Below the pieces are notes generated by a model. That model was not told the origin of the DNA, searched no databases, and saw only the letters and a program-made list of their open reading frames with translations. A DNA stretch of 49,414 nt, taken from positions 155,266-204,679 of the forward strand of contig QCGZ01000002.1 in NCBI GenBank assembly GCA_003279705.1, written 5' to 3'. This DNA comes from OCS116 cluster bacterium AG-390-I16. GTDB taxonomy: Bacteria > Pseudomonadota > Alphaproteobacteria > MED-G09. Made by a program: the position numbers and the translations under genes. Positions 26,087 through 29,000 of the stretch are shown here, in pieces; positions within the stretch are counted from its first letter, which is position 1; every line of letters starts with the position of its first letter.

Positions 26087-29000
26087 CTTCTATTTCTTCA
26101 TTTTCAACATTTTTAGCATTTTCAGAAATTAATTGTTCATCTCTTACCGCTGCATCATTCTCAAGACGGCGAATAGAACTACCAGTTCCAGCAGGAATAA
26201 GCCTTCCAACAATAACATTTTCTTTCAAACCTATTAAATGATCTGATTTTCTATAAACTGCTGCATCTGTCAAAACTCTTGTAGTTTCTTGGAAAGATGC
26301 TGCAGAAATAAAAGATCTAGTCTGAAGAGAAGCTTTAGTAATACCTAATAAAATAGGTTTATAGACCATTGGTTGTTGTTTTTTAGATACTAATTTTTCG
26401 TTAATTTCTTCAGCTTCAAGTTTATCAAGTTGCTCGCCAGCAATAAAAGCGCTATCGCCGGGATCTGAAATCTCAACTTTTTTGAAGCATTTGTCTAGTA
26501 ATAACCTCTATATGCTTATCATTGATTGTAACACCTTGAAGACGATAAACACTTTGAATTTCATCAACAAGATAGCTTGCTAGAGCTTCTAAACCTAAAA
26601 TAGATAAAATATCATGGGGCGCGGGGTTTCCATCAATTAAATACTCACCTTTTTCAATGGTATCTCCATCTTGAACAGATATATGTTTTCCCTTTGCAAT
26701 CAAATAACTTACTTCCTGCTCAGATTCATCAAGAGGATGAATAACTATTTTCTTTTTATTTTTATAATCCCGAGCAAATTCAACTCTACCAGTAACTTCA
26801 GCAATAATTGCATGATCTTTTGGTTTCCTAGCCTCAAATAGCTCAGCAACCCTAGGAAGACCACCTGTAATATCTTTTGTCTTTGCGCCCTCTGTAGGAA
26901 TTCTGGCAATAACATCTCCAGCACCCACTTTGGTTCCGTCACTAGCGGAAATAATAGCATCAACGGACATTAAATATCTAGCCTCCCTATTGTTTTCTAT
27001 AGTTACAATATTGCCATCAGGGTCTTTAATAACCATGGATGGTTTTAACTCACCAGATTTTGATGAGTTTTTCCAATCAATAACAACTTTTTGACTTATA
27101 CCTGTGGATTCATCTGATACTTCACCAATACTTACTCCGTCTACTAGATCTTCAAAAGCAACAGTTCCTCCAGCCTCAGTAATAATTGGAATTGTATAAG
27201 GATCCCATTGAGCTAATCTTTGGCTTTTTTTGACTTTTTCTCCATCATTAATTAGTAATTGAGAACCATAAGGAAGTTTGTGACTAGCTCTTTCAATTCC
27301 ATTTTCATCAAAAACATTTATTGTTGTATTTCTTCCAATAACAATATTACGACCATCAGAGTCTTTTAATATATTTAAATTATCAATTTTAGCTGATCCA
27401 TCAGTATTTGACTCAACATAAGAATTATCCATAACCTGAGCTGTACCACCAATATGAAAAGTTCTCATTGTAAGCTGAGTACCCGGCTCACCAATTGATT
27501 GAGCTGCAATTACTCCTACAGCCTCACCAATATTAACTGGTGTTCCTCTTGCTAGGTCACGTCCGTAACAAGTAGCGCAAGCACCTCTTTTAGTTTCACA
27601 GGTTAATACGGATCTTAACTTAACTGATGGAAGATTTGCTTGCTCTAACAGAGGAATATGATATTCCTCAATAATTTCATCCTTTTTTACAATGACTTCA
27701 TTTGTGCCTGGTTTTCCTGGGTCTATTATATCTTCACAGGGAACTCTTCCGAGCAATCTTTGTGAGAGCGAGACAATTTCCTCGCCTGAATCAATAACAG
27801 CAGTCATAGAAATGCCATTTTTAGTCCCACAATCAACCTCAGTTATAATACAATCTTGAGCAACATCAACTAATCTACGAGTTAGGTATCCAGAGTTAGC
27901 TGTTTTTAAGGCTGTATCAGCAAGACCTTTTCTGGCTCCATGAGTTGAATTAAAATATTCAAGAACATTTAATCCTTCTTTGAAATTAGAAATAATTGGA
28001 GTTTCAATAATTTCACCCGAAGGTTTTGCCATTAATCCTCTCATGCCAGCTAATTGCTTCATTTGAGCAGCAGATCCTCTAGCGCCCGAGTGAGCCATCA
28101 TATAAATTGAATTAACATCATTCTCTCTATTTGTTTCTTCATTCATGGATGTTGTTGAAATCTTCTCCATCATTTTATTTTCAACTCTATCGGTACATTT
28201 AGCCCAAGCATCAACAACCTTATTGTACTTCTCACCTCTTGTGATGAATCCATCTATATATTGTTGTTCAAACTCTGTTGCTAATGCATGAGTCTCCTCA
28301 ATCATTTTTTCTTTTTCTTCTGGGATAATCATGTCATCTTTACCAAAGGAAATTCCGGCTTTAAAAGCATTTTTAAAACCAAGTTTCATAATATGATCAC
28401 AGAAAATTACAGTATCTTTTTGTCCACAATGTCTATAAACATCATCAATAATTTTAGAAATCTCTTTTTTTGTTAATAATTTATTGACAATATCAAACTT
28501 AACATTCTCATTCTCAGGTAACTCTTCAGAAATTAATACCCTTCCAGGAGTTGTTTCAAATGTGCTTTTTTCTCCATCTTTATCATCAAGCCTATAATTT
28601 ATTTTAGAATGAAGAGTTATTGATTGATTTTCTAGAGCAAACCTAATTTCATTAACACTATCAAAGCTTTTACCTTCGCCGGGTTCACCATCTTTCATTT
28701 GAGATAGGTAATAAAGACCTAAAACAATATCCTGACTTGGAACAATGATTGGTTCACCACTAGCAGGGTGAAGAATATTATTAGTAGACATCATTAAAAC
28801 TCTTGCTTCAAGTTGCGCTTCCAATGATAGTGGGACATGAACGGCCATTTGATCGCCATCAAAGTCAGCATTAAAGGCGGCGCAAACCAATGGATGTAAT
28901 TGGATTGCTTTACCCTCAATAAGAACTGGTTCAAAAGCTTGAATTCCAAGCCTATGAAGAGTTGGAGCCCTATTTAAAAGAACTGGATGCTCTCTAATTA

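Follow-up and report, generated by a model that had tools for sequence, protein, structure and literature searches.

In the insect endosymbionts Blochmannia and Buchnera, whose genomes are A/T-rich, poly(A) frameshifts arise where an A/T run in an essential gene that is otherwise intact has become slightly longer or shorter. Many of the tracts there are at least 9 bases long, cases of frameshifts conserved between populations or species are cited, and rescue is thought to be transcriptional, according to the available portion of the report (PMC3017870). In Escherichia coli, sequencing of mRNA detected slippage at T6 (0.82%), at A7 (0.39%) and at T7 (likewise below 1%), as given in the accessible part of PMC6260861. 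Genome-wide data in the available sections of PMC5574713 indicate that slippage grows with run length and that insertion is favoured in A/T runs. On the ribosomal side, the known +1 arrangement of prfB consists of AGGGGG followed by CTT TGA C, as summarized in the accessible part of a review (PMC5009743). Finally, run-linked errors of the 454 GS 20 instrument fell in runs averaging 5.8 bases, 78.8% of them being insertions, and nearly all run-linked pyrosequencing errors lay in A/T runs, as far as the available portion of PMC1564139 reports.

Here we analyze a split rpoC gene of OCS116 cluster bacterium AG-390-I16, located in what we refer to as the window, i.e. the whole stretch of 49,414 nucleotides under study, which has a GC content of 33%. 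On the minus strand, positions 26484 to 26473 read CAA AAA AGT TGA, and the first rpoC frame stops right after CAAAAAAG, which holds six A's, with the TGA at 26475-26473. The second frame, 26480-26076 on the same strand, begins KVEISDPGD and stays open until its stop at 26076. The two pieces match profile TIGR02386 at positions 2-1042 and 1042-1143, respectively, and joined they yield 1257 + 133 = 1390 residues. A first-pass annotation had placed the end of the beta' frame at QMLQKS-stop and had proposed that skipping one A joins the pieces into 1390 residues; the observed frame end, the residue count and the meeting of the profile at 1042 all agree with it. The features are collected in Table 1.

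Table 1 Frame breaks and associated features. Positions refer to the window unless preceded by the handle of another locus of the same genome.
Feature	Position	Strand	Evidence
rpoC first frame, 1258 aa, QMLQKS-TGA end	26473..30249	-	frame, translation, TIGR02386 profile
rpoC C-terminal piece, other frame, 134 aa with the shared lysine counted	26076..26480	-	translation, TIGR02386, genome search
A6 run at the rpoC break (coding strand)	26478..26483	-	letters
A7 run near the rpsG start, same kind of break	25490..25496	-	letters and congener comparison
Main rpsG frame from the first internal ATG, 30S S7	25047..25439	-	TIGR01029
dnaE break at a T7 run	L129 near 7147	-	one congener, G007, 1132-aa single frame
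D-Ala-D-Ala ligase break near the start, G8 run	L128 near 18665	-	intact in two congeners

The rpoC split is private to this assembly, beyond chance. A search with the C-terminal piece across 96 genomes, its own plus 95 relatives, gave matches in 83 including its own, the 13 genomes without a match being uninformative. Inspection of the site in related genomes, a check suggested by the first-pass annotation, found the gene intact in all 82 other matched genomes (0/82 split, eight congeners among these), where the match-bearing frame spans at least 294 aa without an internal stop, compared to 134 aa for the piece studied here. The shorter frames in congeners G001 (495 aa) and G005 (687 aa) run into contig ends. 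Eight of nine congeners were matched. Seven of them carry CAAAAAG there, and the eighth, G002, carries CAAAAAATC, a change of codon that keeps the frame. Among further family members, five of eight were matched, again with CAAAAAG in all five. The site motif was missed at 4 of 29 other-genome loci (L016, L018, L019 and L029), the frames of which are nonetheless open. Since DNA identity to the nearest relatives is about 92-96% across long stretches and none of them is split, the break is either very recent or not real. DNA identity near the site is ordinary, and hence gives no sign of gene decay. Comparison of the rpoC region with a plasmid collection returned no match, and in a scan of named genome contigs the identity of the C-terminal piece was at most 68% among the matches listed (80 loci), nearly all of which are from Alphaproteobacteria.

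The rpoC break is accompanied by others of the same form. The first-pass annotation had pointed to a like error about 1 kb away in rpsG, and indeed the A7 run there breaks the frame, so that reading from the rpsG ATG gives 14 residues and then a stop, whereas the gene is a 156-aa frame in five congener loci. The rpsG motif was recovered in five of six loci tried; the one missed, L118, has the same one-base difference in the DNA alignment. We extended the comparison to the window together with eight further 20-kb stretches of the same genome, aligned to congeners over 202,934 bases, and sought breaks in genes through protein-level scans of frame changes relative to the congeners. Four breaks were identified: rpoC (A6), rpsG (A7), dnaE (T7) and D-Ala-D-Ala ligase (G8). 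In each, a core gene is one base longer than its congener counterpart, in or beside a homopolymer. Both dnaE pieces match DNA polymerase III alpha. Because the run is interrupted in congeners at the dnaE and ligase sites, the extra base is less clearly placed there, in or beside the run. The scans require congener ORFs of at least 70-90 aa and a clear match, and four is therefore a lower bound. Two loci of the same genome, L133 and L134, lie outside the congener comparison; L132 entered one protein scan, which gave zero candidates.

Isolated length differences relative to congeners outside conserved genes comprise gains and losses alike, which shows that the runs of this genome are not longer across the board. 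Several further places were considered and rejected on their contexts and neighboring ORFs, being spacer, antisense or gene edge: 1074 and 3196 in L124, 5414 and 15565 in L125, and 11260, 11662, 14383 and 26060 in the window. Position 18322 in L124 is a junction of two genes with one congener behind it, and its rejection is provisional. In L130, single-base differences occur at about 746 and 1488, against seven and five aligned congener loci, respectively, with no long ORF at either place; that at about 746 adjoins tRNA-Gly.

As a control, the method was reversed, with ORFs of the present genome compared to congener loci that overlap in part and total 697,884 bases. The 781 gene matches yielded ten places, three of which are one and the same spacer. 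Nine were judged, from their contexts and neighboring ORFs, to be gene edges, spacers, short ORFs or antisense, while the tenth adjoins N's. None of the ten was judged a mid-gene homopolymer break in the congener loci, and the burden of breaks therefore looks special to this assembly.

Based on these comparisons, we propose that the extra A in rpoC is, with high probability, an assembly error. One A would be added by over-calling of the homopolymer or by a low-coverage consensus error; in the living cell, rpoC would then be a single uninterrupted frame, about 1390 residues long, and the site would pass without any special event. We infer an origin in sequencing or assembly rather than in the cell. 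The break occurs in one assembly only, with intact close relatives, and its type recurs across unrelated core genes, four in all; such an error is the most likely explanation because the same extra-letter form is found in several other vital genes of this draft. The first-pass annotation had likewise considered a homopolymer error the likelier cause, on account of the nearby rpsG case, a view strengthened by the congener comparison and by the two further breaks elsewhere in the assembly. The pattern resembles the 454 insertion errors in the available portion of PMC1564139, with one extra base, runs of about 5-8, mostly A/T, and otherwise sound conserved genes. In contrast to those errors, nearly all in A/T, one of the four runs here consists of G. 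Several points weigh against an error: the dnaE case has a single congener behind it, the congener runs at dnaE and the ligase are interrupted, length differences outside conserved genes go in both directions, and the two breaks within 1 kb, in rpoC and rpsG, could reflect something that happened locally to the DNA. The extra A would in that case truly be present in the sequenced DNA but functionless, either as a private mutation of the cell or strain or as an error of whole-genome amplification from a single cell. The assembly is incomplete (76.86%, 30 contigs), as might be expected of a draft from a single cell or a metagenome, and the proximity of the rpoC and rpsG breaks is in agreement with such an event. 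However, each of the four breaks adds precisely one base within or next to a run, as call errors do, and inherited breaks in rpoC, rpsG, dnaE and the cell-wall ligase would together be lethal unless rescued. We consider a real but functionless change improbable. It is very unlikely that the strain truly carries the extra bases in fixed form and tolerates breaks in all four genes because its ribosomes or polymerase restore the frame highly efficiently at short runs.

Neither of the two routes of recoding at rpoC finds support. Transcriptional slippage on the A-run, suggested by the first-pass annotation as one route, would generate mRNAs of mixed run length, some of them with the frame restored, as in Buchnera and Blochmannia. 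The A/T-rich window is compatible with this, as are the slippage rescue described in insect endosymbionts in the available portion of PMC3017870 and the low-level slippage seen by E. coli mRNA sequencing even at T6 and A7. The resemblance to the endosymbiont frameshifts extends to a one-base change in a run of an otherwise intact essential gene; in contrast to them, the runs here measure 6-8, one is made of G, and none of the breaks recurs in a compared congener. In the E. coli reporter, no slippage was detectable below 7 T or 8 A according to the accessible part of PMC6260861, and the A6 run of rpoC is shorter than that. Restoring the rpoC frame furthermore needs the loss of one base, whereas insertions prevail in such runs, as far as PMC5574713 is available. 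The 176 genes found intact by comparison contain 332 A6 runs and 239 longer A-runs (162 A7, 68 A8 and 9 A9), and the ligase run, being of G, also speaks against this route. Slippage as the source of functional RpoC is consequently left unsupported, and we regard it as highly unlikely.

The ribosomal alternative, in which programmed +1 frameshifting of tRNA-Lys from AAA to AAA sets the level of RpoC, appears extremely unlikely. The first-pass annotation had described a classic +1 setting, and its local elements hold, i.e. tRNA-Lys would re-pair fully on the second AAA, and AGT is followed by a TGA. The shift itself has neither conservation, the frameshift site being present in 0/82 other matched relatives, nor a stimulator. 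AGT, a sense codon, occupies the A site and occurs 15 times in the first rpoC frame, this site included; the slip codon is thus not followed at once by a stop or a slow codon, and no stimulator was found at rpoC. Folding of 80 nt on each side of the site was no better than in shuffled sequences (z -0.99 and 0.50), and the closest resemblance to a Shine-Dalgarno sequence, AGAGG, is found about 20 nt upstream of the CAA. One tRNA-Lys was found (anticodon TTT), called as an ordinary 76-nt tRNA. Moreover, CAAAAAAG occurs in the phase of the rpoC site at 6 further places in the 176 intact genes, one of them in the adjoining rpsL, without any shift, and 20 times in any phase. This sample was drawn from 200 selected ORFs by setting aside 19 that were not intact by thresholds, including pieces of rpsG, rpoC and dnaE, and by dropping five in or around the broken genes. 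The prfB gene (RF2) of the same genome offers a direct comparison, as rpoC would likewise need a +1 shift and its stop is also TGA. In prfB, however, AGGGGG is located 3 nt before CTT TGA C (L207, at about 1502, plus strand), whereas rpoC has neither CTT TGA C nor a close upstream AGGGGG. Slippage by -1 on A AAA AAG was rejected, too, for this heptamer does not stand in the required phase, and the rpoC frames would not be joined by a shift in that direction.

A real split would make an essential polymerase subunit dependent on recoding at a run of six bases. In the sampled part of this draft genome, about one core gene is broken per 50 kb, and its split genes are therefore not to be taken for biology. 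The rpoC split thus matters only as a warning on this draft genome.
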